Of a stretch of DNA of 64,000 nt, positions 14,981 to 33,480 are shown piece after piece. The first letter of the stretch is position 1; each line of letters opens with the position of its first letter. A program made the position numbers and the translations under genes. Location of the stretch: positions 1,668,001 through 1,732,000 of the forward strand of contig NZ_CP136520.1 in the NCBI RefSeq assembly GCF_032813545.1. The letters are read 5' to 3'. The stretch is from Nodosilinea sp. E11 (GTDB lineage: Bacteria; Cyanobacteriota; Cyanobacteriia; Phormidesmidales; Phormidesmidaceae). The notes beneath the pieces were generated by a model. It did not search any database. It was not told the origin of the DNA and saw nothing but the letters and a program-made list of their open reading frames with translations.

Positions 14981-15025
14981 CAGTCATTGTATTCTGATTG
15001 ACAGATCATCAGAATACAATGACTG
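14981..15025. terminator. Perfect 18-bp stem-loop between pyruvyltransferase and wzy-like genes
   Basis: CAGTCATTGTATTCTGAT (14981-14998) pairs perfectly with 15008-15025 around a 9-base loop, starting 6 bp beyond the stop codon of the pyruvyltransferase-like gene on the minus strand. The position suits a transcription terminator or an mRNA 3'-end stabiliser. A long U-run is lacking, so intrinsic termination is uncertain. Confidence 0.55.
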
Positions 15026-15030
15026 TACCT

Positions 15031-15954: not shown

Positions 15955-16586
15955 CTTCTTGCCCTTTTGCACGCGCTCTCATAGACTAAAAAGGCTAGAT
16001 TTCTAAAAACTTTAGACAAAAAAGATAAATTTTCAATACAGAAATCTGGCGTCTTAATATTTTTTTTGTTTGTACGTGATTCCATCAGTTCAATCAGTTT
16101 TTCGGATGGAAAATCAATTGTTTTTTTACCAATTTTCTGAGAAATTTTTGTCATAATATCTTTTATTCTTTGCTCATTGATAACGTCTGAAAATAAAACA
16201 ACATAATCCGCCAAAAACATCGATACAGCATTAGTAATAATATATTCAATATAATAAAGTGAAATATGTCCTTTGCGCTTTGCGAAAATTGAATTCACTG
16301 CAAGATCTGGCTCTCTCACAACCATCACAGAAAAAATTCCAAACACTTTTGAAAACAAAAAATGCTGCCACGAATGAATATGATGTGCTATTTTTATATC
16401 TGGAAAGCTAAGTTGGGTGTAGTAATACAGATAAGTATTTGCAGAACGTGGAAATCCATCTATTAGCAAATCGCATGCTAGTGTTACAAAACGAGGGGAA
16501 TACTTCTCTACCTTATAATTATTTAGTATCTGGCGCAGTTCAGTCCCAGGTATAACTTGCAAAGCTAGTCTAAGAATTTGCCTCAT
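15951..16586 (-). CDS. Sulfotransferase-like protein
   Basis: A 211-residue protein, short for a sulfotransferase. LLIDGFPRSANTYL (GFPRSANT at residues 44-51) resembles the 5'-phosphosulfate-binding loop of PAPS-dependent sulfotransferases. VMVVREP with a serine six residues on (V89-P93, S99) resembles the 3'-phosphate-binding motif. Spacing between the two is as expected. The remainder is Lys/Ile-rich and AT-biased. It overlaps the flippase stop (TAATG) and the pyruvyltransferase start (ATGA), so the three genes form a tightly coupled unit. The likely role is sulfation of the exported polysaccharide or its precursor; a kinase-like P-loop role is the alternative. Confidence 0.6.
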   Translation of the reverse strand: MRQILRLALQVIPGTELRQILNNYKVEKYSPRFVTLACDLLIDGFPRSANTYLYYYTQLSFPDIKIAHHIHSWQHFLFSKVFGIFSVMVVREPDLAVNSIFAKRKGHISLYYIEYIITNAVSMFLADYVVLFSDVINEQRIKDIMTKISQKIGKKTIDFPSEKLIELMESRTNKKNIKTPDFCIENLSFLSKVFRNLAFLVYESACKRARR

Positions 16587-17911: not shown

Positions 17912-18297
17912 AGGTAACGCATTAAAGGATACTTGAAAACATTAAGATTAGATAGAATGTTAAATTTGATACCAGGAAAAATCGTTAAGAAACGTTTTGG
18001 TATTCTTAACTGCTTTCAGACAACCACCGGAGGAATAACCTCAACACCCAATACTGACTAGCAAGTACATTCAAACAGCACATAGAAGATGGTACTGAGA
18101 ATGCTATAAGGTTTATTTTGAAAAGGTAACTGCCAGTCTGGGAAAGAGTCAGTCCGTCCCGAGCAAAGTCGTGCTGAGAATGTGGAAGATTACTGAAGTA
18201 CACTTTACCCGCCCCCTAAGCTAGTACGACATTAATCTATACGCAGTCTGCTTAGGGGTAATCTTTCTTAGCATCAAACATCCTTCCCAGATAGGCT
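17912..18297. other. Spacer upstream of the flippase, possible gene remnant
   Basis: A 386-bp gap with a 65-codon minus-strand frame at 18006-18203. That frame lacks a convincing ribosome site or family resemblance and may be a decayed gene or chance. Promoter elements for the flippase operon would be expected here, but none is unambiguous. Confidence 0.35.
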
Positions 18298-19041
18298 CTA
18301 AGATTTCTGAAGAAATATAAATAGATTACCTGTTAGCGCTGCAGGCATTAGTCGATGTATTACTGATAACACACTAAATAGAAGTTCACTCTTCATATAA
18401 TACTGAGGTTCAGATGTATAAGTATAAGAAAAATTATTCCATCCATCAAACAAACACGAAATTTCACGATGCGTGTTACATATATATTTTGTTGGAAAGA
18501 CATCAATATTTTTTCTATCTGGCTGAAGCTTTTGAAGAAGCCAGAGATATAAAGAACCACGAAGAAGCCTTGACCCTAAACAGACATAATTTAAAGAATG
18601 TGGTGTTCTTGCACAAAAAAATCCTCCTTTCTTCAGAATTCTCTGAGCCTCTTTTTTCAAAAATAGTGAGTCTGATCGAGATAGATGTTCAAGAACATAG
18701 TCGCAAATGATCATATCAATACTTTCGTCTTCAAGTGGTATGCAATCATCTTTTGCAGTGAGCTGAATATTGTAAGATGTTGTAGGATTTGAAAGAACTG
18801 CTGAGTCTATATCCATCCCAATTAGTTGAGCAACCTTGTCTTTTATGCCGCGCACACTTCTCCTATAAGCGCTTTTATCTTCAAAGAACCAATATCCACG
18901 ACCTGCTCCATAGTCTAAAACCTTAAAGTCAGGCTTTAGTAAAGAATTGATTCTTCCATAAAATTCAACTGTGCCATCGAGAGGTCCATAGCCTCCTATG
19001 CAACCTTTAAAGGGATCAAAAAATTTGTTTTCAATATCCAT
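18298..19041 (-). CDS. Class I SAM-dependent methyltransferase
   Basis: A 247-residue methyltransferase. Motif I is FKVLDYGAGRGYWFF, the SAM-binding acidic residue lies in LIGMDIDSAVL, and the post-I/II region is IDMIICDYVLEHL. RILKKGGFFCARTPH is typical of Methyltransf_11/25 proteins. A TTG nine codons upstream (19068) extends the frame; the ATG at 19041 was preferred because it is followed directly by family-like sequence and preceded by a weak AAAGAG. Its place in the polysaccharide locus suggests methylation of a sugar or lipid carrier, but this is inference. Confidence 0.82.
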   Translation of the reverse strand: MDIENKFFDPFKGCIGGYGPLDGTVEFYGRINSLLKPDFKVLDYGAGRGYWFFEDKSAYRRSVRGIKDKVAQLIGMDIDSAVLSNPTTSYNIQLTAKDDCIPLEDESIDMIICDYVLEHLSRSDSLFLKKEAQRILKKGGFFCARTPHSLNYVCLGSRLLRGSLYLWLLQKLQPDRKNIDVFPTKYICNTHREISCLFDGWNNFSYTYTSEPQYYMKSELLFSVLSVIHRLMPAALTGNLFIFLQKS

Positions 19042-19068
19042 TTTTATCCACTCTTTCACTGAGAACAA

Positions 19069-19779: not shown

Positions 19780-20205
19780 CTAGCCAATACACCGAAAATC
19801 TTTAGCTTCCAGGTACTTCATCTGCCGGGCCTGGCGGCGAGTAAACTCACCCACCGTAGGGTTACCCGTCGGCAAAATCACCCCGCTGGCCTGCATCCAC
19901 AACGCCTCCGGCGCAACAGCAACACTATATTGATTAGCAGCTGTTCTATGCACGTGGTACCAACGAGTCTCTTGGCAACGATCGCACCAAAACGCCTCCA
20001 GCCATTCGCCCGTCAGCGGCACCGTGCCATAGCCCGCAATCACCGTCAGCGATCGCAGCCGACTCAGGCCCCGCTGCTGCAAGTGCTCTGCCTGAGTCGT
20101 GTAAAGCGGATACTTTTGACTAACACTCTCAAGGTAAGTGCCGTGGTCGGGGCAATAAATAGCCCGCCGTTTCGATCGGCTGCGGTTGCGTCGGGGTTGA
20201 GACAT
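19780..20205 (-). CDS. Conserved hypothetical zinc-ribbon-like protein
   Basis: A 141-residue protein starting with a very basic segment (RRNRSRSKRRA) followed by YCPDHGTYLES. A later CDRCQETRW lies at about residues 74-82. The CPxH plus CxxC pair could bind one zinc ion. The middle part (LTVIAGYGTVPLTGEWLEAFWCDRC) and the C-terminal EFTRRQARQMKYLEAKDFRCIG have no known catalytic motif. It has normal composition for this genome and marks the end of the AT-rich island. Function is unknown. Confidence 0.65.
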   Translation of the reverse strand: MSQPRRNRSRSKRRAIYCPDHGTYLESVSQKYPLYTTQAEHLQQRGLSRLRSLTVIAGYGTVPLTGEWLEAFWCDRCQETRWYHVHRTAANQYSVAVAPEALWMQASGVILPTGNPTVGEFTRRQARQMKYLEAKDFRCIG

Positions 20206-20457
20206 AGCAAAGCAAAAACCGAACTATAAAGTACCAAACAGGCGCGGGCCAAATACCTGTCTAAACAATCTGCGTAGCAACTCAGCTCCAGGCACACCTA
20301 TCCCGGCTACGGTCTCAGGCGAGGGCCAACGAGACTACGGGGGAGAGACTGAGATCTAACGACCATCGAAGCCCACTCCATGCCAGACAGGTTACCGGAA
20401 TTATTCAATTTGACAAGCTCTGAACCAGACTTTTTTAGATTTAGACTTTGCCTAGAG

Positions 20458-21762
20458 TCATAGGCGAGAGGCCGCCGCCTTCGGTGAGGGAACACGGGCA
20501 GTAGCCGCCATCGGGCCTCGCAGGCAGGACTCCACCACTTCAAAATAGCGGCGCGTGCCCTGCTCGGGGGTAAACTTTTGCTGCATATAGCAACGGCCCT
20601 GATCGCCCATCTGCTGCGCCAGGGTGGGGTTCGCCGCGAGAGTCCGAATAAAATCGGCCAGCCCAGCGCTATCGCCATTGCGAAAGGCACGGCCAAAGCC
20701 CCCTTCAGCCAGCAGCGATCGCAGATAAGAGTGCGATTCACAGATAGCTGCCACCGGTCGCCCCGTCGCCAAACTGCTATAGAGCTTGCTGGGGGCCACC
20801 AACCCCTCCACCCCCGGCACCAGACTCACTAGGCTCAGGTCGCAGGCCGTGAGCGAGTAAGGCAGATCGCCCTGAGACTGATAGGGCAAAAACATACAGT
20901 TGCCCAACCCCAGCGCCTTCGCCTGAGCGATGCAGCTATGGCGCTTGGCCCCAGCCCCCACAAAGACAAACTGCACCGGCTCATGGCGCAGCGCCTGAGC
21001 GGCAGCCAGAATAGTATCTAGATCGTGGCAGCGGCCCATATTGCCCGAATACAGCACCGTAAACACCTGATCGAGGCCGTGGCGACGGGCAAACCAGTTG
21101 TCTGCCTTAGGGCGCGGCACAATTTGCGTTGGGTCGGCCCAGTTGTGAATCACCGAAACCCGATCGGCAGCCTCCGGGCACCGGTCGACAATTCGCTGCC
21201 GCATCGTTTGGCTAAGCACCACAATCGCCTCGGCATGACGCCAGGTCAGACAGTTGAGCCAGTTCCAAAAACGCACCAGCCCGTGGTTGTGGGCAACCAT
21301 ATTGAGAGCCACCGCCACCTCGGGGTGAATATCGTAGACCACGCACAGGTAGGGCTGCTTAAAAAGGCAGTGGAGCAGGTAGGCCATCACCGGCAGGTAA
21401 GGCGGCTCGGTCGTGACCAACACCAGGTCGCCACGGCGGGCAGGGCTCAGCAGCTTAACCAGCGATCGCACACAGTACAGCAGCCCCCCCACCGCTCGCC
21501 CCCGAATGCGCTGGGGCCACAGGCGAGACGTACGAGTGCGACGCACCGTGACATCGCCCACCACCTCATACTTAGGAGCCATGGGGCGATCGTAGGCATA
21601 GCCCGGCTGCCCCGCAAACACCTGCACCTGCATACCCTGACGGCTCAAACTCTGGGCCAGCTCGGCCATTAGCTGCCCCGTCGGCGCATAGTCAGGGGGA
21701 AAAAACTGGGTCAAAATCGAAAGTTGGAAAGATGCACCCGGATCGGAACGTATTGCTCTCAT
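20458..21762 (-). CDS. WcaI-like family 4 glycosyltransferase
   Basis: A 434-residue GT-B enzyme, counted from the ATG at 21762 (a TTG directly upstream is the longer option). The N-terminus SILTQFFPPDYAPTGQLMAELAQ and QVFAGQPGY match the WcaI colanic-acid/EPS glycosyltransferase subfamily. The donor domain shows VLYSGNMGRCHDLDTIL and LVPGVEGLVAPSKLYSSLATG with the conserved Glu. It likely contributes to repeat-unit assembly at the inner membrane. It is separated from the AT-rich cluster by the zinc-ribbon-like gene and from the export genes by a 1-kb spacer, so it may have its own promoter. Confidence 0.87.
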   Translation of the reverse strand: MRAIRSDPGASFQLSILTQFFPPDYAPTGQLMAELAQSLSRQGMQVQVFAGQPGYAYDRPMAPKYEVVGDVTVRRTRTSRLWPQRIRGRAVGGLLYCVRSLVKLLSPARRGDLVLVTTEPPYLPVMAYLLHCLFKQPYLCVVYDIHPEVAVALNMVAHNHGLVRFWNWLNCLTWRHAEAIVVLSQTMRQRIVDRCPEAADRVSVIHNWADPTQIVPRPKADNWFARRHGLDQVFTVLYSGNMGRCHDLDTILAAAQALRHEPVQFVFVGAGAKRHSCIAQAKALGLGNCMFLPYQSQGDLPYSLTACDLSLVSLVPGVEGLVAPSKLYSSLATGRPVAAICESHSYLRSLLAEGGFGRAFRNGDSAGLADFIRTLAANPTLAQQMGDQGRCYMQQKFTPEQGTRRYFEVVESCLRGPMAATARVPSPKAAASRL

Positions 21763-22521
21763 CAAACCCTACTCAACAGGAACTCAGCACCAAAGGAAAC
21801 TACTCGTATAAGCACCAAAACTGCTGCTATCGGCATTTTTTGACCTTAGCCTTAAACATCAAGCTGGTTTAGATTGCCTAAAAAATTAGCCAAACTACCA
21901 TCTAGATACAAGCATTTACATTTGCAGCAGCAAATTCAAAACTTGGCTTCAGAAAGTTGTCTCAGAAATCGCTTTCAAATATATTCGCGCCAACCCCGAC
22001 TTTGCCTAGGGCTACCGAGAAGGATACCGCACTTCTTCTAGAAGAGCATTTCAATATTTAATTTTATTGCTATTGGGCAGGCAGCCCATTTTCCCTAAAC
22101 ACAGCTGGGCCTAAATAGACCACACATTTAACCCACAAGTCGTATTCGAGACTACCAGGCTTAGCCCAGACCGCTTGTCATAACAAGCACATGAATCAGA
22201 TCTTTCCCTACACCAGCCTTTAAACGAGTAACCCGGCTGGGCGATCGTTTTGCTCCAAGATTGGGGCAAAACTTGAGGCAAAACAAGCTTAAAGCCAAGC
22301 ACGACCGATTCAAAGCTAAGTTACATCCACCCCAAAAGACACGCCAAGCCAATGCTTAATCAGATCGAGCCAATCTCTATCATTAGAGAGATGCGCTAAA
22401 TCAACCGCAGAAACTACGGTACATCCTTTGTCAGACCAAGACGAGCAGCGAATTCCGCCTTGGCTAACTCAATCAGCGGCATGATTAGCTAGAAAAATAA
22501 ATTGGAACGATAACCTCACCC

Positions 22522-22549
22522 GTAGGGGCAAACGGCTGTTTGCTCTTAC
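22522..22549. repeat. GTAGGG hairpin repeat
   Basis: GTAGGGGCAAAC (22522-22533) pairs with GTTTGCTCTTAC (22538-22549) across a GGCT loop, with two G-T wobbles. It belongs to the short palindromic family dispersed between genes in this window. Confidence 0.6.
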
Positions 22550-22691
22550 CCAAATTCATGCCCCCCTATTCAACCGACAAAAGCCCATGGAAAACCGACA
22601 TCTTCCAGGGGCGATGCAATGTATTATCCCCCAATCGGGGAGGTGCAGATAGGATTTAGCAAACCCCGGTTTATCATCAGAAATTCTCTAG

Positions 22692-22713
22692 GGGGCGTAG
22701 CATGCTACGCCCC
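22692..22713. repeat. Perfect 22-bp palindrome of the GTAGGG hairpin family
   Basis: GGGGCGTAGCA is followed immediately by its exact complement TGCTACGCCCC. It lies 65 bp beyond the stop codon of the secreted-protein gene on the minus strand and may double as a transcript-end structure. Confidence 0.65.
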
Positions 22714-22777
22714 TACAAATCACGGGTAGGCAATGCCTGTCATTCCCGTGCATACGATCTTTACGGCTCTCTACGGC

Positions 22778-23710
22778 CTAACTGTCGATCGCAGTTCTCA
22801 GCTGTTGTAGCGATCGCCCCAGAGCGACAAAGTCTGAGTTTTGCCCCAGGGCAACTAGCGTCTCAGGAGAGCTGCTATCTAAAATCTGGTTATAGGCTTG
22901 GATGGCGCTTTCTAACTGAGTAGCGCTAACAGCGGCAGCAGTGGGCGGCAGCAGCCCGCCCGTGGCGTTAAAGAGAGCGACTAACGCTCGATAGTCGGCA
23001 CCGGTCAACGCCATTTCGGTGAAGATCGCCACCTGACTAGGGGCCAGGCCAGCCGCAAAGGCTGCCGCCAAAAACCCCGCCGCATTGGCGATTTGCGCCT
23101 GGGTGCCGCGCAGAGGCGCAACCATAGGCGTGCCGCCAATCGGCACAAAGACCGCCGAGGTAGCCAGCAGAGCCGTCGGGGTAGACCCAGCGATAGGAGT
23201 AGGGGCAGCAATGCTGAGGGTGCCTTGTTCGCCAGTGAGTGAAACGCTGTCGCCATTGGCGATCGCCGCTGCCACCACCACCGCCAGTTCATCCACAGTC
23301 TGCTCGGCATCTTCCTCGACACCGCCGCCGAGGTCAACAGAGGTGAGCCCGTCGAGGGCAATTTCGCCTGGGGTCGTCAGGGCGGCGGCAAGGGTGGGGT
23401 TAGTGCCCTGCAACCCTTGCAGAATCTCTGTGGCCGATTGGTTAACTGCCTGCTGGGCCGCCACCGTGAGCAAGATCTCTCCGGTAGTGGCATCGATGGT
23501 GGCATTGGGAGTAGTCGAGGTAAGTTCTTCTTCACTGCCCAGGGAAGAGGCCCCAATGGACAGCACCGTTGAGCCCCCCACGCTCACCCCGCTGCCCAGA
23601 CCGGAGGGTACCGAACCGGAGTAGCCCGGTAGGGCGATCGCCAGGGTGCCGCCTACTACAGCCATCATTAACCAAACATGCTGCCAAAGTCGGCCCACCA
23701 GTTTATCCAC
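22778..23710 (-). CDS. Secreted Ala/Gly-rich protein of unknown function
   Basis: A 310-residue protein from a GTG at 23710, chosen because a strong GAGGAG lies 7 bp upstream; a TTG start at 23770 is less likely. A signal peptide is evident (about LMMAVVGGTLAIALPGYS). The mature part is low in charged residues and rich in Ala, Gly, Thr and Ser, with acidic patches (GVEEDAEQTVDEL). It shows no cysteine, repeat unit or catalytic motif. The C-terminal half is predicted helical (ESAIQAYNQILDSSSPETL). It lies directly downstream of a large predicted outer-membrane protein, Wzc and Wza on the same strand, so a periplasmic or secreted role linked to polysaccharide export or biofilm is plausible but unproven. 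Confidence 0.72.
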   Translation of the reverse strand: MDKLVGRLWQHVWLMMAVVGGTLAIALPGYSGSVPSGLGSGVSVGGSTVLSIGASSLGSEEELTSTTPNATIDATTGEILLTVAAQQAVNQSATEILQGLQGTNPTLAAALTTPGEIALDGLTSVDLGGGVEEDAEQTVDELAVVVAAAIANGDSVSLTGEQGTLSIAAPTPIAGSTPTALLATSAVFVPIGGTPMVAPLRGTQAQIANAAGFLAAAFAAGLAPSQVAIFTEMALTGADYRALVALFNATGGLLPPTAAAVSATQLESAIQAYNQILDSSSPETLVALGQNSDFVALGRSLQQLRTAIDS

Positions 23711-23717
23711 GGTTTTT

Positions 23718-23723
23718 CTCCTC
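23718..23723 (-). promoter_or_regulatory. Ribosome binding site deciding a GTG start
   Basis: GAGGAG on the minus strand sits 7 bp before the GTG at 23710 and supports that start over the upstream TTG. Confidence 0.7.
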
Positions 23724-23785
23724 AAATATGAGCTGCGATCGAGAATGGGGCTAAAGCATGAGCCCGGCAACAGGAATCATCTCAT

Positions 23786-25837
23786 CTAAAACCTGGGGCC
23801 AAAGTTAAACCCATAGCCGATACTTAACACTGCGACGGAACCAGCACGGGTATTGTTGCCGATATCGCCGTAAAGCAGGTTGAGCGTAATCGGTATCGTC
23901 GATACCGGCACAATCGAAGCCCCGACATTCACACCGACGCCGCTCCAGGCCGTATTGACCGAAAACTGAGGGTGCACTTGCAAGCCCACTCCGGCAATCA
24001 CGCCTACGTCACTGCCTTCGCCCGAGAACGACCCGCCCCCTAGGCCCAGGGTGCCTGTGATCGGCAGCCGGTTGGTCGGGTGGTCGGGCTGAAGCAGGTG
24101 GGCCGCCGTCACCACCCCGTAGAGACTCGATGGGCTACCGCCAGCCTCAGAGCCATAGGAGGCAAAATTGTTCAGCCCCACAGCGGCGGCTACCTCGGTG
24201 TCATCGCCGCTGTGGACGACGCGGTGCACCTTGACATCAAAGCCACCGTTTTCGCCGAACCGCCGCACGCTCTGCAGGTTATAGGCCAGTTCTACCCCCA
24301 CTACCTGGCGCGAGTCACCTAGCCCAAAGCCCATAGACATACTGCCGTCAGCCACGGGACGCACGCGATCGGCTCCGGCCAGCGAGGCGCTGATAAACAG
24401 GTCGCCCCAGTTAGCTCCAAAGGCGGAGGGAATGCCAGCATTGGGGGAGGGGGGAAACGTCAGCGGCGGATTAGCGGCGGTCGTCAACGGCGCGATTCGC
24501 AAGTCATTTTGAATCTGCGCGGCACTGCCAGCGGCTGGGGCAGCCTGGGCGATCGCCGGGGCCGCCTCTGGCTCTGCCCCGAACATAGCCGGTGATATCC
24601 CCGCTAGCGTCGGCGACATTACCGGCTGCGGGGTAGGCAAGGCCAGTGCCACGTTGGGGTTGCTGCCCGCCAAATCGGGCAACTGGGGGCCAGGGAGAGG
24701 CTGTTGTCGCGATCGCTGGTTAGCCGCAGTCGCCCTACTCGGGTCAGCGATCGCAGCCCGTCGCACCGATCGCCCTGGAAGCTGGGGCAGCTGCGGCCCC
24801 CGCGCCAGGGTTTTGGGCTGGGGCACTCGGCGGGTTGGGCTAGGCTGAAGCGTGGTTTGGTCGGCCAAAGCCGCCGGATCGACTGGCATACCAGCCTGCG
24901 ATCGCAGATCGCGCAGCAGCGATTGCACCGCCGTTGCTCTCGCCCGAATAGTGGCCAGGTCGGGGGATGCCGCACGGGTCGGCGGGGTCGTTGCGATCGC
25001 GGGGGCTGAGCTAGGCGCAGCCGCCACGGCAACAGCGCGCCCTAGGGGCTGGGCCATTGGGTCCTGGCTCAGGGCTAGGGCCTCAGGGGTGGCCGCTGGC
25101 CGCTCAAGCCCTTGGGGGCGGGGCTTAGCGGCCACAGGTTTAGAGGGCGGCTCAGAAACGTCGGCGATCGCAGTCTCTGCCCCAGTCCCAGCGGGGGCTT
25201 GAGCTTCAGCCATGGTCCCCGCAGGAGCGGCGATCATCGCCCCTGAGCCCTCACCGGAGCCATTGCCTGGGCCATCGGCGGCGACGGCGATCGCAGCAGC
25301 AGGCGGGGACCCGACTTCAGTCGCCAGCTCATCGTCTAGAGATGTCAGGTCAGCGGCGATCGGTGGTGGCTCTGAAACCACAGCTATTACCGTCTGATCT
25401 GAGGCCCCATCCCCCATCGGGTTTACGACCAGGTTAGGGGCTAGCTCTGGAGCTGAAACGGCAGATGCAGCGCTGTCTAAGGTTGTCTCCTCGGGCGGCA
25501 GGGCCGCGATCGCGGCTGTCGAATCTGGCTCTGGGGTGGCAGCCGCTGGGGTAGCCGTCTCTGCCGCTGCGGCAGCAGCATCTACCACAACATGATCAAC
25601 CCCCGGCGTCCAAACCGGTTGAGCAGCGGCCTGCTCGTCAGCCTGGGGTGCTGTGGTCTGCGCCGAAGGCTCTGGCGTCACGACTGGATGGGGATCTGCC
25701 GCCAGGGCTACGCCAAGACTGGGTTCAGGCTCGGCCAAGGGCAATTCGGGGGCCGCCTCGGCCCCGCGAGGCAAGAGGCCTAGCCCGGCCAGCCCCAGTA
25801 GTCCACCCGTAATCAGTGGTTTTGATTTGCGCTTCAT
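23786..25837 (-). CDS. Pro/Ala-rich predicted outer-membrane barrel protein
   Basis: A 683-residue protein starting at an ATG with GAGGAG 8 bp upstream. A signal peptide (GGLLGLAGLGLLPRGAEA) leads into about 400 residues of Pro/Ala/Glu-rich low-complexity sequence that should be extended and disordered. The last 220 residues (from about ANWGDLFISASLAG) alternate polar and hydrophobic residues in short strands, such as MSMGFGLGDSRQVVGVELAYNL, and end GYGFNFGPRF. A terminal Phe is a classic outer-membrane barrel signal. No named family is recognised. It sits between Wzc and the secreted Ala/Gly-rich protein and 54 bp from wzc, so it probably belongs to the export operon. The long linker could span peptidoglycan. 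Confidence 0.72.
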   Translation of the reverse strand: MKRKSKPLITGGLLGLAGLGLLPRGAEAAPELPLAEPEPSLGVALAADPHPVVTPEPSAQTTAPQADEQAAAQPVWTPGVDHVVVDAAAAAAETATPAAATPEPDSTAAIAALPPEETTLDSAASAVSAPELAPNLVVNPMGDGASDQTVIAVVSEPPPIAADLTSLDDELATEVGSPPAAAIAVAADGPGNGSGEGSGAMIAAPAGTMAEAQAPAGTGAETAIADVSEPPSKPVAAKPRPQGLERPAATPEALALSQDPMAQPLGRAVAVAAAPSSAPAIATTPPTRAASPDLATIRARATAVQSLLRDLRSQAGMPVDPAALADQTTLQPSPTRRVPQPKTLARGPQLPQLPGRSVRRAAIADPSRATAANQRSRQQPLPGPQLPDLAGSNPNVALALPTPQPVMSPTLAGISPAMFGAEPEAAPAIAQAAPAAGSAAQIQNDLRIAPLTTAANPPLTFPPSPNAGIPSAFGANWGDLFISASLAGADRVRPVADGSMSMGFGLGDSRQVVGVELAYNLQSVRRFGENGGFDVKVHRVVHSGDDTEVAAAVGLNNFASYGSEAGGSPSSLYGVVTAAHLLQPDHPTNRLPITGTLGLGGGSFSGEGSDVGVIAGVGLQVHPQFSVNTAWSGVGVNVGASIVPVSTIPITLNLLYGDIGNNTRAGSVAVLSIGYGFNFGPRF

Positions 25838-25891
25838 CAGTCGTACTCCTCACGTCCCATGTCATACCTACCGCTGTTTAGCGGCTGTGTT

Positions 25892-28198
25892 CTAGCCGGT
25901 CTCATGCACTCCCGAGGTTACCTTGGGGTGACCGTAATCCCCGTAGTAATAGTCGTAGCCGCGCCGTCGGCTCTGGGGTACACCATTGACCACCAACCCC
26001 AGCAAGGGAGCCTGGGCCGTATTGCCCAGATCGGCCAGCACCCGCTGAATTTCTGAACGCTCAGACCGGTTGAGCCGCACCACTAACAGCAGCCCGTCGG
26101 CGTGGGCAGCGGTCAGCTTGGCGTCGATCATGCCCGCTAGGGGGGGAGTATCAAAAATGATCAGGTCGTAGTGGCGACGATACTGCTCTGTCATTTGCTG
26201 CATCTTGCGCGACGACAGCAGCCGACCAGGGGCCGGAGGGCGCGTCCCCGCCGGTAGCAGGTGCAAATTGGCATTGCCAGGAATCGTCAGCACCCAATCG
26301 GTAGCATCGTCAATAGTCTGGGTCAGCAGGTCGCTCAGCCCCCGACTATTGGACTGGCCAAAAATAATGTGCTGACTAGGCTTGCGGAGGTCACCGTCAA
26401 TCAGCAGCACCCGACGCCCCATATTGGCGGCGGCGATCGCAAGGTGGGCACACATGGTTGACTTGCCCTCCCCTGGCACCGACGAGGTCAGGGCCACCAC
26501 CTGCACCGGGGTATCAGAGCTCAGCATGCGCAAGTTGGCCTCAAGCGAGTAAAACGCCTCGGCAAAGCTAAAGGAGGTATACAACTTGTCGGGGCTTTGA
26601 CTCTGAGCCAACACCTGGGCCATAGTGCCTGCCAAGTCGGGGACAATCAGCAAGGGCTGCTTTTCCAGGGCCGGAGCATTGGGCACCATGGCCAGATTGG
26701 GTAGCTGGGTGACTTTGACCAACTCGTCAGTACTGTGAAAGGCTTGGTCGGCGCGATCGCGCACCAGCGCCGCCCCACCCCCCAGCAGTAGCCCTACCAC
26801 CGTGCTCAGCAGCAGCTTGCGGGGCAGGTTAGTCATCTCGGTAATACTCGACTCATCCAGGGGCGAAATCAGCTCCCAGGGTGCGGTCTGTCGCGCCATC
26901 TGCAAACGCAGATCCTGGCGACTGGTCAACAGCTGGTCAAGACTACCTTCCGCCACCGCCAGCTCTCGGGCAATCTGCTGGTAAGAGCGCGACAGATCGG
27001 CCAGCCGCTGAATCTCGGCCCGCAGCTGCTGTACCGCCTGGCCAATCGCTTGATCCTGGGTGTCTAGCACCTGCATTTGATTAGCGGTATCGACCAACTG
27101 CTGCATCAACTCCCGACTCACCGTCCCCTGATAGCCCAGGGTATCGGCTGCTACGGTCGCCCCCACCAGCCGCTGGGCTTCGGCCTCTAACAGCGGCAGC
27201 AGCTGCTGTCGCCGATCTTCTAAAGCTTCAATCATGGGCGTCGTAGCCTGAAACCGAGCTGACTCAGCCGCAATCGTTTGCTCCAGCTCGCGCAGGTCGC
27301 CGAGCAGCGCCTGGTAGGTGGGCGACTCGTTGAGGTTGGCCACTCGAATAGCCGTATCGGGGTCAAACCCTACCTGAGTTCGCAGGCTGTCGTACAGCGG
27401 CCCCAGCGCCATCAGCTGCACCCGCAGCTGCTCTTGATCGGCCAGCATCTGGTTGAGTCGCTGGGTTACGCTCTCGCTGGTGGCGTTGACGTTAACCAGG
27501 TCATAGCGTTTCTGAAATTCACTCAGGTCTTCCTCAATTACCGCTACTTCCTGCCATTTTTCTTGCAGTTGTTCGTCGATAAAGGTCAGCCCTCGCCGCA
27601 GTTCCCCCTGGCGATCTTGCACACTGTAGTTGACAAAGCCGTTGACCACCTGGGTCAGCACAAAGGTGACCACCGCCGGGTCGTCGGCTCGGTAGGTAAT
27701 GCGCAGCACCTTAGACTCCCCTTCTTGGGTAATCGCCAAGCGCTCTAGCAGAGTGGTGTAGGTAATGTCGGGATAGCGTTGCTGAATGTTGGCCAGAATC
27801 GGATCGATCACATCTGGGCCACGCAGCACTCGAATTTGGCTGGTGTAGTCTAACCCCGAATTTCTAGCTCCTGGCAACCCAACTACCGCTTCCAAACCCA
27901 GGGAAGGGGCAGCGGTAACCGGTTCTACCAGAAGATTGGCACTGCCGCTGTAGACCGGAGGACGACTTAAGTGCCAGAGCGTCAACCCGCCAAAGGACAA
28001 GGCTGCTACCCCTAAAAACACCCCAAGCCGACGCTTGAGCACCCCGACTAGATGACTTACATCAAAATCATCCCCATCGTCTACGAGGGGAGAGGACGGC
28101 GCTGTGACGGCAACAAACCCATGATGAACCTGACCATGGCCATGACCATTGCCGTTGCCGTTGGCTTCATGGGCCGTGGAGGAGGGAGAAAAAGGCAT
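25892..28198 (-). CDS. Wzc-like polysaccharide co-polymerase/tyrosine autokinase
   Basis: A 768-residue inner-membrane protein that controls chain length and export. A short N-terminal tail is followed by TM1 (LGVFLGVAALSFGGLTLW), a Wzz domain with a long periplasmic coiled-coil region (about 100-420) and TM2 near residue 445 (LLLSTVVGLLLGGGAALV). The cytoplasmic BY-kinase domain has Walker A SSVPGEGKST (K579), Walker A' VLLIDGDLRKP and Walker B LIIFDTPPL. The C-terminus carries a tyrosine cluster (Y748, Y750-752, Y755), the expected autophosphorylation sites. Both transmembrane and kinase parts are in one chain, as in proteobacterial Wzc. Wza lies 121 bp upstream in the same direction. Confidence 0.95.
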   Translation of the reverse strand: MPFSPSSTAHEANGNGNGHGHGQVHHGFVAVTAPSSPLVDDGDDFDVSHLVGVLKRRLGVFLGVAALSFGGLTLWHLSRPPVYSGSANLLVEPVTAAPSLGLEAVVGLPGARNSGLDYTSQIRVLRGPDVIDPILANIQQRYPDITYTTLLERLAITQEGESKVLRITYRADDPAVVTFVLTQVVNGFVNYSVQDRQGELRRGLTFIDEQLQEKWQEVAVIEEDLSEFQKRYDLVNVNATSESVTQRLNQMLADQEQLRVQLMALGPLYDSLRTQVGFDPDTAIRVANLNESPTYQALLGDLRELEQTIAAESARFQATTPMIEALEDRRQQLLPLLEAEAQRLVGATVAADTLGYQGTVSRELMQQLVDTANQMQVLDTQDQAIGQAVQQLRAEIQRLADLSRSYQQIARELAVAEGSLDQLLTSRQDLRLQMARQTAPWELISPLDESSITEMTNLPRKLLLSTVVGLLLGGGAALVRDRADQAFHSTDELVKVTQLPNLAMVPNAPALEKQPLLIVPDLAGTMAQVLAQSQSPDKLYTSFSFAEAFYSLEANLRMLSSDTPVQVVALTSSVPGEGKSTMCAHLAIAAANMGRRVLLIDGDLRKPSQHIIFGQSNSRGLSDLLTQTIDDATDWVLTIPGNANLHLLPAGTRPPAPGRLLSSRKMQQMTEQYRRHYDLIIFDTPPLAGMIDAKLTAAHADGLLLVVRLNRSERSEIQRVLADLGNTAQAPLLGLVVNGVPQSRRRGYDYYYGDYGHPKVTSGVHETG

Positions 28199-28319
28199 AG
28201 TGTTCGAGGGAAATATTCCCAGGAGTTCGTTACTTATAGCTCAAAAGTCAAAATTCAGCGTAATTTAGCCATTTTTTGCTTTGTTCAGACCCCAGTACAG
28301 GTCTGGCCCCTGCGCCCGG

Positions 28320-29450
28320 CTAAAACCCAAACAACCGCAAAATGGCCGCGAGCGGTGTTAGAGGGCGCAGAAAAAGGCCTAGGGTGTCGCCGGCCGCAGC
28401 AGCGACGTTGCGATCGACAATCACGACATCGTTGGGCCGCAGAATGGGGTTAGTGGTGTCGTTGGCGGCAGCGGCCAGGTCTACGTCCACCGTGCGCTGG
28501 TCAACGCTGCCATCGGGGTTGAGCCGCACCAGCTGCACCGTGGAGCTTTGGGCGCGGCTGCTTTCAAACCCGCCAGCGGCTAAAATCGCCTGGTTGAGGG
28601 TGGCATTGGCGGGTAGGGTGACGCCGCCAGGGCTGGCAACCTCACCGACCACCTGCACCGGCATGGCGGCGGGTGAAAAATTGGCGCTCGAAATCGCTAC
28701 CGACTCTTCGGGCAAAACCGCCACGGCTTTGGGAACCACAATGGTATCGCCATCACGCAGGCGCATATCTTGATTAATGTCACCAGTGCGAATCAAATCC
28801 CAAAGGCTAGCGGTCACCATGGCATCGCCCTGGCGGTGGGGGCGGCGTACCTGAATAGCTTTGATGTTGGCCTGCTGAGTAATGCCTCCCGCTTCTTGGA
28901 TTACCTGGGTGAGGGTAGGCCACTGGCGAGCGGTGGGGTTACCGCTACCGCTGCCGCTGGTTTCGGCCTCTAGCTCAATGGTGTAGGTACCGGGGCGGTT
29001 TACTTCTCCAGCCACCACCACTCGCACCGGGCGGGCCGCCAGCAGCGTGACCGTCAGCTGGGGCGGGCGAGTGAGCAACGGAGCGTAGCTGGTGACCAGG
29101 GCCGTCTGAGCTTCAGCCAGGGTTAACCCTTGAACCGCCACAGCTCCTGCCAGGGGCAAGGCCAGAGTGCCATCGACCAGCACCTCGTGAACGCCGTTCT
29201 CAGGGCCGCTAAATTCTGGAATATTGAAGATGTCTATGCGAATGCGATCGCCTGGTCCGAGCACATAGGCCTCGGGCAATCGTGGTTCAGCCATAGGAGC
29301 CGCTAGTTGCCCTGGCCGGGGCAAAGGCCCCTGATCGACCTCGGTAGAGAGCGGTAGGGTTTCTGCCCAGGCGACCCCCGGCGCGGCGGTGAGGGATGCG
29401 ATCGCCCCTAGGGTGCTCACCCCCCGGAGAATTAGGCTAAAGCGGGTCAT
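28320..29450 (-). CDS. Wza-like polysaccharide export protein with SLBB domains
   Basis: A 376-residue protein of the outer-membrane polysaccharide exporter family. A signal peptide (GVSTLGAIASLTAAPGVAWA) is followed by the Poly_export domain (YVLGPGDRIRIDIFNIPEFSG...VDGTLALPLAGAVAVQGLT). Two SLBB domains follow (VVVAGEVNRPGTYTIE and QVVGEVASPGGVTLPANATL), then a hydrophobic C-terminal stretch (LGLFLRPLTPLAAILRLFGF) that could be the outer-membrane helix of a Wza octamer. No lipobox cysteine is present, unlike E. coli Wza. It would form the channel working with the Wzc protein encoded next door. Confidence 0.93.
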   Translation of the reverse strand: MTRFSLILRGVSTLGAIASLTAAPGVAWAETLPLSTEVDQGPLPRPGQLAAPMAEPRLPEAYVLGPGDRIRIDIFNIPEFSGPENGVHEVLVDGTLALPLAGAVAVQGLTLAEAQTALVTSYAPLLTRPPQLTVTLLAARPVRVVVAGEVNRPGTYTIELEAETSGSGSGNPTARQWPTLTQVIQEAGGITQQANIKAIQVRRPHRQGDAMVTASLWDLIRTGDINQDMRLRDGDTIVVPKAVAVLPEESVAISSANFSPAAMPVQVVGEVASPGGVTLPANATLNQAILAAGGFESSRAQSSTVQLVRLNPDGSVDQRTVDVDLAAAANDTTNPILRPNDVVIVDRNVAAAAGDTLGLFLRPLTPLAAILRLFGF

Positions 29451-29561
29451 TACTAGCTTCCTCAGGCTTTCTGGACAACCGCACCAACGATTAATTAGGT
29501 ACTCCGCGATAGCTCATGATGTTCTATGCAGCCCGATTTAACCTCCGTAAGTTAGCAAACG

Positions 29562-30317
29562 TTAATCTGCGCCGTGCTCATGCAAAACAAGCTGCACCTG
29601 CTCTGCTAGCCAGGTATTAAACAGCTCATCGATTAAGCGCTGACGGGTCGGCTCATCGAGTCGGGCGGGCAAAAACTTTTCGAGCCTCACCACCACAAAC
29701 CATTCCCCCACTCGGGTGGGTGGCCATAGCTGCCCCGGTTGACTAATCGAGAGCATGCGGCCCAGCGCCGGGTGCGGCACCGACAGCTCAACCGGGCCAA
29801 TTAGGCCGCCCGTCTGGGCCTCCTGACCTTCAGAATACTGCCGGGCCAGCTCAGCAAAGGGTTGGCCATCGTCTTGAATGCGGAAGTACAGTTCCTGGGC
29901 AAGACCCCCATCATGGGTGCGAATCAGCGAGTACAGCACCCGATCGAGGCTGGCCTTGCGCTGTAGAAAGTGGGACTCTACCTTAGGAGCCCAGATGTCG
30001 GCCTTGTGGCGCTGTAGTTTGGCCGCCCGCTCTGCCAAACCAGTGAGGTCGGCGTCGCTCAACCCCCGCTGAGCCAAAAACCCCTGGCGCTGCTCCGGCG
30101 ATGTGATCTGGTTAGTCTGCAAAAACTGGTCAACCGCCTGGGTGAGCTGCTCTGGCGTTAGCGTCACAGCGGCGATCGCCTGGTCAATCACTAGTTCTTT
30201 GACCAAGGCGGGTAGCAGGCCATAGCGCCGGAGCAGCGGCATGACATCGGCGGCTATGACCGCCCTATCTCCGATGGACAGCACGGGTCTGGCACTTTGA
30301 GCAGAAGAGGGATTCAC
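29562..30317 (-). CDS. Parvulin-type peptidyl-prolyl isomerase
   Basis: A 251-residue protein from a GTG start. The N-terminal half is helical and SurA/PrsA-like (VKELVIDQAIAAVTLTPEQL). The C-terminal half holds a parvulin domain with ELYFRIQDDGQPFAELARQYSEG and GGLIGPVELS...VGEWFVVVRLEKF. No clear signal peptide is visible, so location is uncertain; cyanobacterial homologues without signals are often exported by type I systems or cytoplasmic. It is the first gene of the export operon, 111 bp before wza, suggesting help with folding of the export proteins. The catalytic domain is compact but appears intact. Confidence 0.85.
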   Translation of the reverse strand: MNPSSAQSARPVLSIGDRAVIAADVMPLLRRYGLLPALVKELVIDQAIAAVTLTPEQLTQAVDQFLQTNQITSPEQRQGFLAQRGLSDADLTGLAERAAKLQRHKADIWAPKVESHFLQRKASLDRVLYSLIRTHDGGLAQELYFRIQDDGQPFAELARQYSEGQEAQTGGLIGPVELSVPHPALGRMLSISQPGQLWPPTRVGEWFVVVRLEKFLPARLDEPTRQRLIDELFNTWLAEQVQLVLHEHGAD

Positions 30318-30531
30318 AGAGACAATTGCTAAAACGGTTGCCGAGAGAGGGTACCGATTCGATCCTTTAGCCCAAGGTTATCGTATTCTGGGCGAGCCGT
30401 CAGGGGCTGAGTTAAGCGAGCCAAACTTACCCCACAACCCGGTCAAAATTTGATAGATAGAACGCAAGCTACCCAGTTGACGGGGCTGCTACAATCCACC
30501 CAACCTGTTTTATCAATCCAAGGAAAGCACC

Positions 30532-31476
30532 ATGACCCGGCCCACTATTCCCGTGGTGTCTTACCCCGATCTCTTGAGTGAGACGATGGCGCGGCAACGG
30601 GCGATCGCCACCCTGGGTCAAGCCTTAGAAGAGGTCGGGTTTTTTATCCTTGAGCCCCATCCGGTTTCCCCCGAAGTCGTGCGGCGCGCCTACCAGGTGG
30701 CCGCCAACTTCTTTGCCCTGCCCGATCGCACCAAAACCCAATATTCTCCCCCCCCTCGCCTAGGGCCAAAGGAGCCAGGAAAAGGAGGCTTTTCTAGCTT
30801 CGGCAGCGAACAGGCCAAAGGCCATAGCGTTCCCGACCTCAAAGAATTCTGGCATGTGAATCGCCACAGCCTCACCGACCCCATGGCCCCTTGGCCCCAG
30901 GAGGTGCCCTCCTTTCGCCCGGTGATGACCCGGCTCTATCAACAGCTGATGACCTGCGCCGAAACCCTGCTTGAGGCCTGCGCTGAGTACTTGGGCCAGC
31001 CCCGCGACTGGTTGGTGACTATGGCCACAGGCGGCAATACTGTGCTGCGGCTGGCCCATTACCCGGCGGTAGGCACGGTGCAGCCGGGAAGTCTGCGGGC
31101 CGCCCCCCACGAAGACATTAATTTAATTACCCTGCTCTGTGAGGCCACCGCTCCGGGGCTAGAAATTTTGGTTCAGGGCCAATGGCTCCCGATTCAGACC
31201 CACCCCGGCCAGATCGTGGTAGACACCGGCGATATGCTGCAAAACCTCACCAATGGGTTGATCAAGAGTACGACCCATCGCGTGGTCAACCCCCGCAGCG
31301 GTAACCAGGCTCGTCTCTCTATGCCGTTTTTTGTGCATCCTCACCCCGAGGTCGACCTCACCCCGGTCAAAAGTTTGGTCGATCGCACCGGCGGCGTGGC
31401 CCAGTTTCCCCCCATTACCGCCGCCGCCTACCTAGCCCAGCGGTTAGACGAGATTCAGGTGGGGCCAGCCGCCTAG
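30532..31476 (+). CDS. 2-oxoglutarate/Fe(II)-dependent oxygenase, isopenicillin-N-synthase-like
   Basis: A 314-residue enzyme of the plant-type 2OG-Fe(II) dioxygenase family. An N-terminal DIOX_N-like region (about 5-130, VVSYPDLLS...ALEEVGFFILEPHPV) precedes the double-stranded beta-helix core. The iron ligands are H193 and D195 in PHEDINLITLL and H249 in STTHRVVNP. The 2OG-binding pair is R261/S263 in ARLSMPFF. A good ribosome site (AAGGAAAG) lies before the ATG. Substrate is unknown; candidates in cyanobacteria include gibberellin/flavonoid-like or ethylene-type chemistries, none supported directly here. It is divergent from the parvulin gene. Confidence 0.9.
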   Translation: MTRPTIPVVSYPDLLSETMARQRAIATLGQALEEVGFFILEPHPVSPEVVRRAYQVAANFFALPDRTKTQYSPPPRLGPKEPGKGGFSSFGSEQAKGHSVPDLKEFWHVNRHSLTDPMAPWPQEVPSFRPVMTRLYQQLMTCAETLLEACAEYLGQPRDWLVTMATGGNTVLRLAHYPAVGTVQPGSLRAAPHEDINLITLLCEATAPGLEILVQGQWLPIQTHPGQIVVDTGDMLQNLTNGLIKSTTHRVVNPRSGNQARLSMPFFVHPHPEVDLTPVKSLVDRTGGVAQFPPITAAAYLAQRLDEIQVGPAA

Positions 31477-31538
31477 CGACTGGCCGAGACAGGACAACTT
31501 TTGTGGGCGGTTGCAGGTGCTGGGTGTCGGGTGTTATA

Positions 31539-31690
31539 CAAATCCGGATCGCCCAACCCCGATTCCAAACAGAAATTGTAGGGTGCATCCGCGCAGCGAT
31601 GCACCGTCTCAGGGTTATTTTTAGAGCAAATCCGGATTGTCTAACGCCGATTCCCAAACGGCCAACCCGTAGAGGCGCATGGCATGCGCC
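31539..31690. repeat. Composite repeat: two direct repeats plus two hairpins
   Basis: A 32/33-bp direct repeat beginning CAAATCCGGAT occurs at 31539-31570 and 31627-31659. Between the copies lies a GTAGGGTGCATC hairpin (arms 31582-31589 and 31598-31605). After the second copy lies another hairpin, GGCGCATG/CATGCGCC (31674-31681 and 31683-31690). The block fills the gap between convergent genes and resembles the block at 34821-34891. Confidence 0.65.
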
Positions 31691-31725
31691 CTGCGGAATT
31701 GAGGGCAACTAAGCAGGACTGCGTT

Positions 31726-33210
31726 TCAAGCCCCAATACCTAACTTGCCGGCCAGACTCGGCGTCAGCGGCAGCAGCACCGTCAGGGCCAAAAACAGGGC
31801 CAGCAGTCCCAGGGCCGCGCGGGCATCGTTGGGTTCAGAAATATCGTTTAGACAAGGGCGCTCTGGGTCACGCTGTAGCAGCAAGATCACCCCCGCCCAA
31901 TACAGCGCTAGGGGGTTAGCCAAAGAGACCAACCCCAGCACCACCAGGGTAAAGAGAGTGGTGCGGCCCAGGGTCTTGCGGCCATAGATCGCCTGCACCA
32001 TGCGGCCACCATCGAGCTGCCCTGCTGGCATCAGGTTGAGAGCGGTAATCACCAGCCCCAGCCAGCCCATAATCGTGAACGGGTGAATATCGACCAGGGG
32101 CTCTTGCAGCACATCCCCCAGCACTACTCGCGCCAGGGCACCGATCAGCACAGACCCCTGAAAGAACCCCGACGGAATTTGAAACGCACTACCGGGGTGC
32201 GAGAGCAGCAATCCACCCACCAGCATCACTAGAGAAACAATGCCGCCCGCCGCTGGACCGGCCACGGCAATGTCAAACAGCACGCTGCGGTTGGGCAACA
32301 GCGACTCAAACCGGGTGAGGCTGCCAAAGGCCCCAATCTGCCAGGCGGGAATTAAAAAAGGCGGGCTGAGGCGCACCCCGTAGCGACGAGCCGCCACCCA
32401 GTGGCCCGCTTCGTGGGCTCCCAAGATGGCCAGCAGGGCCAGCAGAAACGGCAACGCCGCCCGCCAGCGAGAAAAGTCTTGCAGCAAGTCAAAGCCCTGG
32501 AGCACGGCTCCAGCCTCTAGGCTGGTGAACAGGGTGGCAATCGCCAGTACCCCCGCCAGCGCCCACTGGGCCGGGGTGGTTTTGACCGGGTCAGCAGTGG
32601 CGGGCAGCACCACCACCGTGGGCTTTTGCTCCAGGTTTTCGACCAAGAAAAGGCGGTAGCGATCGCCCAGTCGTTCGGTCAAACGCTCTGCTAATTTGGC
32701 CTGGGTGGTCGCGGGGTCGCCCCGCAAGTTACCGCGAAAAATGGCCCCCTGGTCGTAGGGAATAGTCTCGGTGCGAAAGTAGGTGTCGAGGCCAAAGATA
32801 CCTTCGATCTGCGCTAGCTCCTCCGGCGGAATGGCGATCGCCGCCGCTGGAGCGCCAGGGGCAGCGGTCGGCTGATCGAGGGGCTCTAGGCGATCGGTCG
32901 GTTCAGGCACCGAGTCTGCGGCGGGTATGGGCGCTGGGCGCTGGGTAGACAGCAGGTCTTGGCCCAGGGCACGGAGGCGACGGCCCAGATAGATATAGAG
33001 CCCTGTCGCCCCCAGCAACAGCAGCAGCACCCCCGCCAAATTGATATAAATGCCTAAGGCAAATAACCCAAAAAACAACAGCCAGGGGGCCATCAGCACC
33101 ACCGATTGCAGCCAGGCCAAGATGCCCACCGAGCCGTAGGGCTGGGCGCGGCGATAGCCCCAGACCAAAATTGCGATCGCAGCCAGCAAAATCAACCCAG
33201 TTATAACCAT
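31726..33210 (-). CDS. Site-2-protease-like M50 metallopeptidase
   Basis: A 494-residue polytopic membrane protease from the ATG at 33210; an upstream start would add 22 residues of no family character. The zinc site HEAGH (H266, E267, H270) lies in LAILGAHEAGHWVAARRYG, and the second ligand motif is ALNLMPAGQLDGGRM (NxxPxxxLDGGR). Two N-terminal helices precede a 150-residue soluble domain rich in Pro/Ala (about 85-235) that is probably cytoplasmic or lumenal. The layout matches the EGY1/S2P-type cyanobacterial and plastid proteases rather than RseP, as no PDZ domain is apparent. It would cleave transmembrane substrates such as anti-sigma factors. Confidence 0.93.
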   Translation of the reverse strand: MVITGLILLAAIAILVWGYRRAQPYGSVGILAWLQSVVLMAPWLLFFGLFALGIYINLAGVLLLLLGATGLYIYLGRRLRALGQDLLSTQRPAPIPAADSVPEPTDRLEPLDQPTAAPGAPAAAIAIPPEELAQIEGIFGLDTYFRTETIPYDQGAIFRGNLRGDPATTQAKLAERLTERLGDRYRLFLVENLEQKPTVVVLPATADPVKTTPAQWALAGVLAIATLFTSLEAGAVLQGFDLLQDFSRWRAALPFLLALLAILGAHEAGHWVAARRYGVRLSPPFLIPAWQIGAFGSLTRFESLLPNRSVLFDIAVAGPAAGGIVSLVMLVGGLLLSHPGSAFQIPSGFFQGSVLIGALARVVLGDVLQEPLVDIHPFTIMGWLGLVITALNLMPAGQLDGGRMVQAIYGRKTLGRTTLFTLVVLGLVSLANPLALYWAGVILLLQRDPERPCLNDISEPNDARAALGLLALFLALTVLLPLTPSLAGKLGIGA

Positions 33211-33480
33211 AGTGCTGTTGTCCTTGCCCTCCCCAACAATGATCGAAACCGCCCCCACAGGGGCAAAAACCCCCATCAGTCTACCGTCGATAGGCCAGAG
33301 CCGACCAGCCAGGGGCCGCTTTGAGCAGTTCCGCCTGCGGCTAAACCGGTATAAATGGAATTCGCCCAGAGATTAAGGTGCTTAAATAAAGCAGACAGAA
33401 CAGCCAAACAGAACCCCTTAACCTAGAGCGGCTGCGGCCCCTGAGGGTCATCTCTATGGTTTGATCAGCCGTTGCGCGCC

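Follow-up and report, generated by a model that had tools for sequence, protein, structure and literature searches.

Does the run of exporter-type genes at the head of a polysaccharide cluster in Nodosilinea sp. E11 act as one export module, or is a smaller unit embedded in it? The window analyzed here, that is, the whole stretch of 64,000 nucleotides (contig NZ_CP136520.1, positions 1,668,001 to 1,732,000), carries on its minus strand five genes that a first-pass annotation, made from the letters alone, had proposed to be an export module. We find that the final two genes make up the conserved unit, a barrel-partner pair widespread in cyanobacteria, in which the first gene codes for a predicted outer-membrane barrel and the second for an exported partner protein. 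The five genes, the two regions discussed below, and the first gene after the pair are as follows.

29562-30317, minus strand: PpiC-type prolyl isomerase (PPIase), 251 amino acids (aa), GTG start; Pfam Rotamase, 3e-07.
28320-29450, minus strand: Wza-type outer-membrane polysaccharide export (OPX) protein, 376 aa; Poly_export, 5.2e-18; SLBB, 1.2e-20.
25892-28198, minus strand: Wzc-type polysaccharide co-polymerase (PCP) with a tyrosine autokinase domain, 768 aa; TIGR01007, 2.6e-44.
23786-25837, minus strand: predicted outer-membrane barrel protein, 683 aa, ending in NFGPRF.
23789-24553, minus strand: predicted barrel domain, residues 429-683 as modeled; AlphaFold2 and structure matches.
22778-23710, minus strand: exported partner, 310 aa from the GTG.
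22781-22942, minus strand: C-terminal 'AYN' segment of the partner, residues 257-310; profile.
20458-21765, minus strand: WcaI-like GT4 glycosyltransferase, first gene after the pair; Pfam and neighborhood comparison.

Open reading frames together with Pfam and NCBIfam searches confirm the five same-strand genes and their described parts, and the coordinates place gaps of 111, 121, 54, and 75 base pairs (bp) between them, in the order PPIase-Wza-Wzc-barrel-partner. The closest named relatives of the locus are found in Nodosilinea and neighboring Leptolyngbya-type cyanobacteria. In single-sequence searches of 63 genomes of the family, the barrel protein was present in 34 and the partner in 17. 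For the genus we compared 19 stretches from 18 barrel-bearing genomes, the window's own excluded, and wza and wzc lie directly upstream of the barrel gene in 16 of the 18. The two exceptions are L075, whose contig begins within the barrel gene, and G040, which has relatives of the barrel and the partner on separate contigs, without wza or wzc. Where the contig continues past the barrel (16 genomes), the partner comes next in 15, and the GT4 gene, which in the window lies ∼1 kilobase (kb) past the partner on the same strand, follows the pair in 12 of the 13 with enough downstream sequence. Of 13 genomes testable for the PPIase gene, meaning those with at least 4 kb upstream of wza or with the isomerase itself in reach, 8 gave a match and 5 did not; the gene is an optional neighbor of wza-wzc-barrel-partner. 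Its product is probably cytoplasmic, since no obvious signal peptide was seen by eye. Within the genus the neighborhood is thus conserved for wza, wzc, and the barrel, and for the isomerase only in part.

Beyond the family the pair persists, mostly in other surroundings. A barrel-domain profile run on 388 sampled genomes of the class identified relatives in 141 of them, and in 63 of 157 genera; several of the 141 rest on weak matches (E 1e-14 to 6e-4, mostly in family f2). The sample from outside the family comprises 80 listed places in 64 genomes, corresponding to 79 distinct barrels (L151 and L213 are the same). The gene after the barrel is co-directional and within 600 bp in 78 of the 79 places that have a next gene, and its product is signal-peptide-like in 74 of these 79. 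By comparison, 122 of 535 other genes of at least 200 aa in the same stretches are signal-peptide-like, as are 69 of 464 in 60 stretches drawn at random from 20 of the genomes (Fisher p about 2e-44 for the latter against 74/79, a value that overstates independence because L151 and L213 duplicate one barrel and the loci have common ancestry). A signal peptide was likewise seen by eye in the product of the gene after the barrel at 43 of 47 named loci, and one of the four misses, L135, lies where its contig ends. Relatives of the partner are encoded one or two genes past the barrel in Nostoc, Richelia, Aphanizomenon, and Trichormus, where the fetched stretches gave no wza, wzc, or isomerase match. 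The idea of a five-gene export module is therefore not sustained: the isomerase was not found in 5 of 13 testable genus genomes, and class-wide the pair occurs without a wza or wzc match in most of the places fetched.

Two side observations concern the spread and surroundings of the pair. Barrel relatives at L119, L132, and L133 are on contigs labeled beta proteobacterium, Gemmatimonadetes, and Bacteroidetes. At L134, L136, L139, and L141 (Chamaesiphon and a relative), two conserved genes come right after the partner, in the same order in four contigs of metagenome-assembled genomes; the product of one of them has pentapeptide-type repeats by eye.

What kind of protein is the first member of the pair? 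Its architecture comprises a signal peptide, a ∼400-residue Ala/Pro-rich linker, a short helix, a conserved PSxxxGxPSAFGAxWGD segment, and a predicted 12-stranded barrel. Residues 30-429 are 39% Ala plus Pro with two aromatic residues and no Cys, in agreement with the ∼400 disordered Pro/Ala residues described at first pass, as is the C-terminal Phe. The window protein has no Pfam or NCBIfam match up to an E value of 1, and the window partner has only chance-level matches (best E 0.04), so that both are indeed unrecognized by these families; among 47 barrel relatives, OMP_b-brl gives a weak match in 6 (best 7.7e-05) and YadA_anchor a match in 2 (best 0.033). The C-terminal outer-membrane barrel foreseen by the annotation was upheld by an AlphaFold2 model of residues 429-683, built with 47 aligned sequences, which has 12 strands, a mean predicted local distance difference test (pLDDT) of 83.2, and a predicted template modeling (pTM) score of 0.78. 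With strand faces assigned by alternation rather than from coordinates, the outward positions of the window sequence are mostly hydrophobic (1 of 64 charged) and the lumen-facing positions polar or Gly (7 of 64 charged, plus three His), and for the genus a count of 2 K/R and 5 D/E makes the predicted lumen slightly acidic. Conserved lumen residues are E88, K108, H110, and Y145 (model numbering).

The top structural match to the model is FapF, the amyloid secretion channel of Pseudomonas (Z 18.1 over 197 residues at 2.8 Å), followed by the sugar porin KdgM (Z 17.1), COG4313 (16.4), and NanC (15.8); the beta-domains of the autotransporters NalP, AIDA-I, EstA, and EspP score about 14 to 15.5, and the barrels of intimin and invasin ∼14. 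Foldseek ranks an oligogalacturonate porin first and FapF second. The FapF alignment, known by its first and last aligned residues only, starts at model residue 31 and at FapF residue 89, where the plug helix begins. Just here the model has a non-strand segment (residues 35-51) that is among the most conserved stretches of the family, with P35, P42, G46, and A47 invariant in 47 rows and W49, G50, and D51 conserved at 93 to 98%. This segment probably closes the barrel from the periplasmic side.

The linker ahead of the barrel is far more variable. Across 127 loci the barrel domain starts between residues ∼29 and 569 of the open frame, with a median of 187 (a start at residue 5 in L211 was set aside, as its frame may be broken). 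Arm length is therefore not essential to the barrel family, and the earlier suggestion that the linker spans the peptidoglycan as an essential coupler of the barrel to the Wza/Wzc channel is unlikely. The arm bears also on an autotransporter-like arrangement, in which the Ala/Pro-rich region would be a passenger that reaches the outside by way of the protein's own 12-stranded barrel and is displayed there, with the partner as its ligand. A long, low-complexity arm and a C-terminal 12-stranded barrel behind a helix would suit such a protein, as would the similarity to the autotransporter beta-domains noted above. The arm is nearly absent, however, in L160 and L132 (barrel starts at residues 29 and 42), yet a partner gene follows both, and FapF, the best match, keeps its N terminus in the periplasm; we consider this arrangement very improbable.

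The partner begins at a GTG preceded by GAGGAG, the strong ribosome site reported at first pass (the mechanical open reading frame starts at a TTG, giving 330 aa rather than 310), and the mature protein is, as described there, Ala/Gly-rich (17% Ala, 11% Gly). A signal peptide and a disordered region of approximately residues 20-65 are followed by a predicted alpha/beta domain that ends in a conserved segment of ∼50 aa, here termed 'AYN' (LxxAIxAYNxI...LRxAI). The AlphaFold model has a mean pLDDT of 82.1, with block means that for the most part exceed 90 from residue 71 onward and lie near 37 over residues 21-60. It gave no Foldseek match at E≤0.001 and no clear match among solved structures (best VIA-align Z 4.4), which is compatible with a new fold without proving one.

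Is this domain common to the partners? We assembled 122 of them, comprising the window's own, 43 from the named loci (minus L109, L110, L133, and L135), and 78 from the 80 class stretches; L170 (next gene without a signal peptide) and L178 (stretch ending at the barrel) were left out, the second downstream gene was used for L111 and L116, and L130, which has a broken barrel frame, was left out of set A2. We turned the C-terminal ∼50 residues into an iterated profile (LxxAIxAYNxI...LxxLxxxxxFxxIGxxLxxLR). It matches 78 of the 122, its seed rows included, at E≤0.01, and none of the 122 reversed sequences (lowest 0.44); the first downstream gene of L145 was counted and misses the domain. Over the 388 genomes the profile gives 84 matches in 67 genomes; judged against the barrel matches listed, 79 of the 84 have a same-strand barrel no more than 4 kb upstream. 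The five others are at contig ends (G196 and G339), beside a run of N (G375), on a different contig from the barrel (G040), or a weak partial match (G060). The partners are otherwise diverse: they range from 114 to 776 aa, often have Ser/Gly, Asn/Gly, or Pro/Thr-rich tracts between the signal peptide and the C-terminal domain (by eye), and fall into subfamilies of which hhalign links some and not others. In L228 (G185) a single barrel is followed by two tandem partners, both with the shared domain.

We considered an NxSD[VI]TG-like motif close to the N terminus as a common partner signal and ruled it out, as it occurs in only 27 of the 122 and is missing from the window partner and most others. 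As a separate observation, an NQSDITGTN-like form stands just behind the signal peptide in the partners of L131, L210, L152, L198, and others, in a few cases with several repeats.

The folded domain, the constant pairing, and the variable disordered arm on what is predicted to be the periplasmic side would also fit an envelope tether, in which arm and partner stay in the periplasm and join the outer membrane to the peptidoglycan or the inner membrane, transport being incidental. Neither window protein has a peptidoglycan-binding Pfam domain, however, the spread over 141 of 388 genomes is patchy, and partners of such varied length, many with low-complexity tracts, are more typical of surface proteins. 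We judge a tether improbable.

How firmly is the pair tied to polysaccharide genes? The rest of the cluster spans 12092-19068 on the minus strand, and the locus is a Wzx/Wzy-type polysaccharide cluster with the five genes at its head:

18298-19068, minus strand: methyltransferase.
16589-17911, minus strand: Wzx-like flippase.
15954-16586, minus strand: 211-aa protein, no Pfam family, sulfotransferase-like by eye.
15034-15972, minus strand: pyruvyl transferase.
13553-14794, minus strand: hydrophobic 414-aa protein, Wzy candidate by eye, no Pfam match.
12092-13240, minus strand: glycosyltransferase.

Because a pyruvyl transferase is present, the polymer is probably acidic. Elsewhere in the family, 17 stretches were fetched from other genera, several of them short contigs, and in 7 a match to wza, wzc, or GT4 lies near the barrel. 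Outside the family such matches occur within 7 kb of 8 of the 80 pairs, in eight genomes, and in none of the 60 random stretches (one-sided p 0.0097; 7 of 80 and p 0.018 without the GT4-only case); L183, among the eight, has a match of only 77 residues, and three have GT4 homologues 52 to 54% identical to that of the window. GT4 homologues occur close to the pair in several genera besides that of the window. Matches to wza were found near only 2 of the 80 barrels, and most of the fetched pairs have no wza or wzc match within 7 kb, in searches with one query each that divergent relatives could escape. Together, the genus and the outside cases suggest that the pair was placed at polysaccharide loci more than once, most pairs being elsewhere. 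Co-occurrence at the genome level is uninformative because OPX genes are present in 346 of the 388 genomes.

With this link the barrel could be an outer-membrane pore, or an accessory comparable to GfcD, for the Wza/Wzc polymer, the partner serving as a periplasmic or surface helper. The order wza-wzc-barrel-partner-GT4 kept in the genus favors such a role, as do the excess of polysaccharide genes over random stretches and the closeness in fold of KdgM and NanC, 12-stranded porins for acidic sugars. Absence of polysaccharide genes near a pair is weak evidence, since in cyanobacteria these genes are often scattered. Beta-barrels are reported beside OPX genes, and the N-terminal half of GfcD/YjbH is described as FapF-like (PMC9603273). 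Several features argue against a polymer pore, however. There is a single barrel of this family in the genome, as against five OPX genes, and the hydrophobic C-terminal tail of the window Wza is by eye similar in kind to those of its four paralogues (Wza_C gives no Pfam match in it up to an E value of 1), so that no feature seen here singles out this Wza as dependent on a porin. At least 205 of the 346 OPX-bearing genomes have no barrel, most fetched pairs have no wza or wzc match at hand, and the slightly acidic predicted lumen would be unfavorable to an acidic, pyruvylated polymer. In the reports on composite translocons, moreover, the porins of myxobacteria have 18 strands, and OPX proteins of 280 aa or less accompany 93% of the coupled barrels (PMC9601211, PMC9603273). 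We regard this role as unlikely; of the earlier proposal that the barrel is coupled to Wza/Wzc export, the link to polysaccharide genes stands, and a need of this Wza for a porin is not indicated. Replacement of Wza by the barrel was rejected as a main reading, given the paralogue-like OPX tail and the single-copy barrel.

The locus itself shows no excess of promoter-like sites (4 in 20000-30800, compared with 3.7 in shuffles), and terminator-like sites there number 16, compared with 10.5 (standard deviation 3.6). As a further observation, genes for a 2-oxoglutarate dioxygenase and an M50 peptidase (30532-33276) lie upstream of the operon, an order kept in eight fetched isomerase-bearing genus genomes.

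What, then, does the pair do? The explanation we favor, although tentatively and at somewhat less than an even chance for the reading as a whole, is that the barrel is a FapF-like channel or anchor dedicated to the product of the fifth gene and recruited to polysaccharide loci. The pairing, the predicted fold, the common partner domain, and the recurrent neighborhood are results of computation, whereas the plug, the direction of transport, the partner as cargo, and the role in the matrix are inferred. Both proteins would pass Sec; the barrel would insert in the outer membrane, with its disordered N-terminal arm of variable length in the periplasm, where we place it because the number of strands is even. 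The arm would collect the partner, the plug formed by the segment ahead of strand 1 would open, and the partner would be handed to, or kept at, the cell surface, either as cargo or as a stably bound surface subunit. For passage, a folded domain in the partner would need to be unfolded first, or else its folding would take place outside. In the polysaccharide-linked lineages the partner may act in or with the polymer layer, and the pair could amount to a compact secretion system supplying the slime matrix.

Our reserve has two main grounds, the demand just stated on a folded partner and a within-genome swap test, in which cognate matching of barrel and partner did not exceed what general relatedness would give (r 0.589 observed, shuffled mean 0.586; 39 loci, with only five multi-copy genomes; L145 replaced by the partner of L111 and L213 dropped as the same barrel as L151). 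Other observations also weigh against a dedicated channel or anchor. The fold alone is silent on what passes, because KdgM scores close to FapF and COG4313, NanC, and the autotransporters come after it. No sequence relation of the barrel to FapF was found: searches of PDB sequences with barrel profiles gave nothing relevant, and the FapF chain did not appear up to an E value of 10. The helix preceding the barrel (model residues 11-17) is weakly modeled, with a pLDDT of about 58. At E≤0.01, 44 of the 122 partners are without the shared domain, and in G040 the barrel is followed by a ∼100-aa protein with a signal peptide, the shared-domain protein being on another contig. The signal-peptide rule behind the pairing counts is home-made and loose, and the loci are not phylogenetically independent. 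Finally, the partner domain is predicted to be well folded, unlike the unfolded amyloid type that FapF exports. An amyloid partner, considered because of FapF, is weakened by the same model; cyanobacterial matrix proteins able to form amyloid are described in Synechococcus elongatus (EbfG proteins; PMC9981879).

A more specific proposal, which we think somewhat unlikely in its full form, is a cyanobacterial secretion or surface-display system of an undescribed kind. The long-armed 12-stranded channel would be plugged, the C-terminal domain of the partner, possibly a new fold, would be the docking or export signal, and the variable front part would be matrix material; several lineages would have put the pair in polysaccharide loci for joint delivery of polymer and protein. 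The cyanobacterial outer membrane is described as having low permeability (PMC9581022), and the movement of proteins and polymers across it is poorly known. The pair offers a concrete system for its study, with a barrel that recurs in 141 of the 388 sampled class genomes and, in the window, has no significant match to a Pfam family, and a partner that has no clear structural counterpart. The repeated position of the pair next to polysaccharide genes connects it with the formation of sheaths and biofilms.

How does the pair compare with known systems? In two-partner secretion, TpsB is a 16-stranded Omp85-type barrel with POTRA domains; the window barrel is predicted to have 12 strands and has no POTRA or Omp85 Pfam match. 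A classical autotransporter has its barrel behind its own passenger domain; the arm ahead of the present barrel, of putatively periplasmic location, may be nearly absent in some family members. The composite OPX/beta-barrel translocons EpsX/EpsY and Wzp (PMC9601211, PMC9603273) resemble the window locus in that a barrel gene adjoins an OPX gene within a polysaccharide cluster. The pair differs from these 18-stranded myxobacterial translocons in its 12 predicted strands, in an OPX protein of 376 aa rather than 280 aa or less, and in the lack of a nearby OPX match for most of the pairs fetched from outside the genus. GfcD of the Escherichia coli group 4 capsule, for which 26 strands or two barrels have been suggested and which acts with GfcB and GfcC (PMC8592465, PMC9603273), likewise shares an operon with Wza/Wzc homologues but is much larger than the window barrel protein. 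A phylum-wide survey of cyanobacterial export genes covers OPX and PCP proteins, and no such barrel was noticed in the portion consulted (PMC4594306); nor did we find a description of the barrel-partner pair in the open-access literature, as searched by titles and opening abstracts with limited terms.

Two systems come closer. In Salmonella, the exoprotein ZirS needs the outer-membrane protein ZirT for release, and ZirT shares features with intimin and invasin (PMC2270342). The autonomous two-gene arrangement of a compact outer-membrane barrel and an exoprotein is like that of our pair, and a difference lies in the barrel, since those of intimin and invasin rank lower against the window model. 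FapF is a 12-stranded barrel with a helical plug (A89-G101) behind a disordered linker and a periplasmic coiled coil (PMC5557850). Both proteins have a C-terminal 12-stranded barrel, here predicted, with a disordered linker, here presumably periplasmic, ahead of it; the conserved segment before strand 1 stands where FapF has its plug; and both work with separately encoded small exported proteins, which for our pair is indicated by gene pairing. The arm of the cyanobacterial proteins reaches more than 500 residues, in contrast to the coiled coil and short linker of FapF, the partner is predicted to be folded rather than an amyloid repeat protein, and no Fap-type companion genes were recognized among the window neighbors, for which no profile search was made. 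By analogy of arrangement and predicted fold, and short of membership in the FapF family by sequence, the pair would work most like FapF or ZirT/ZirS.

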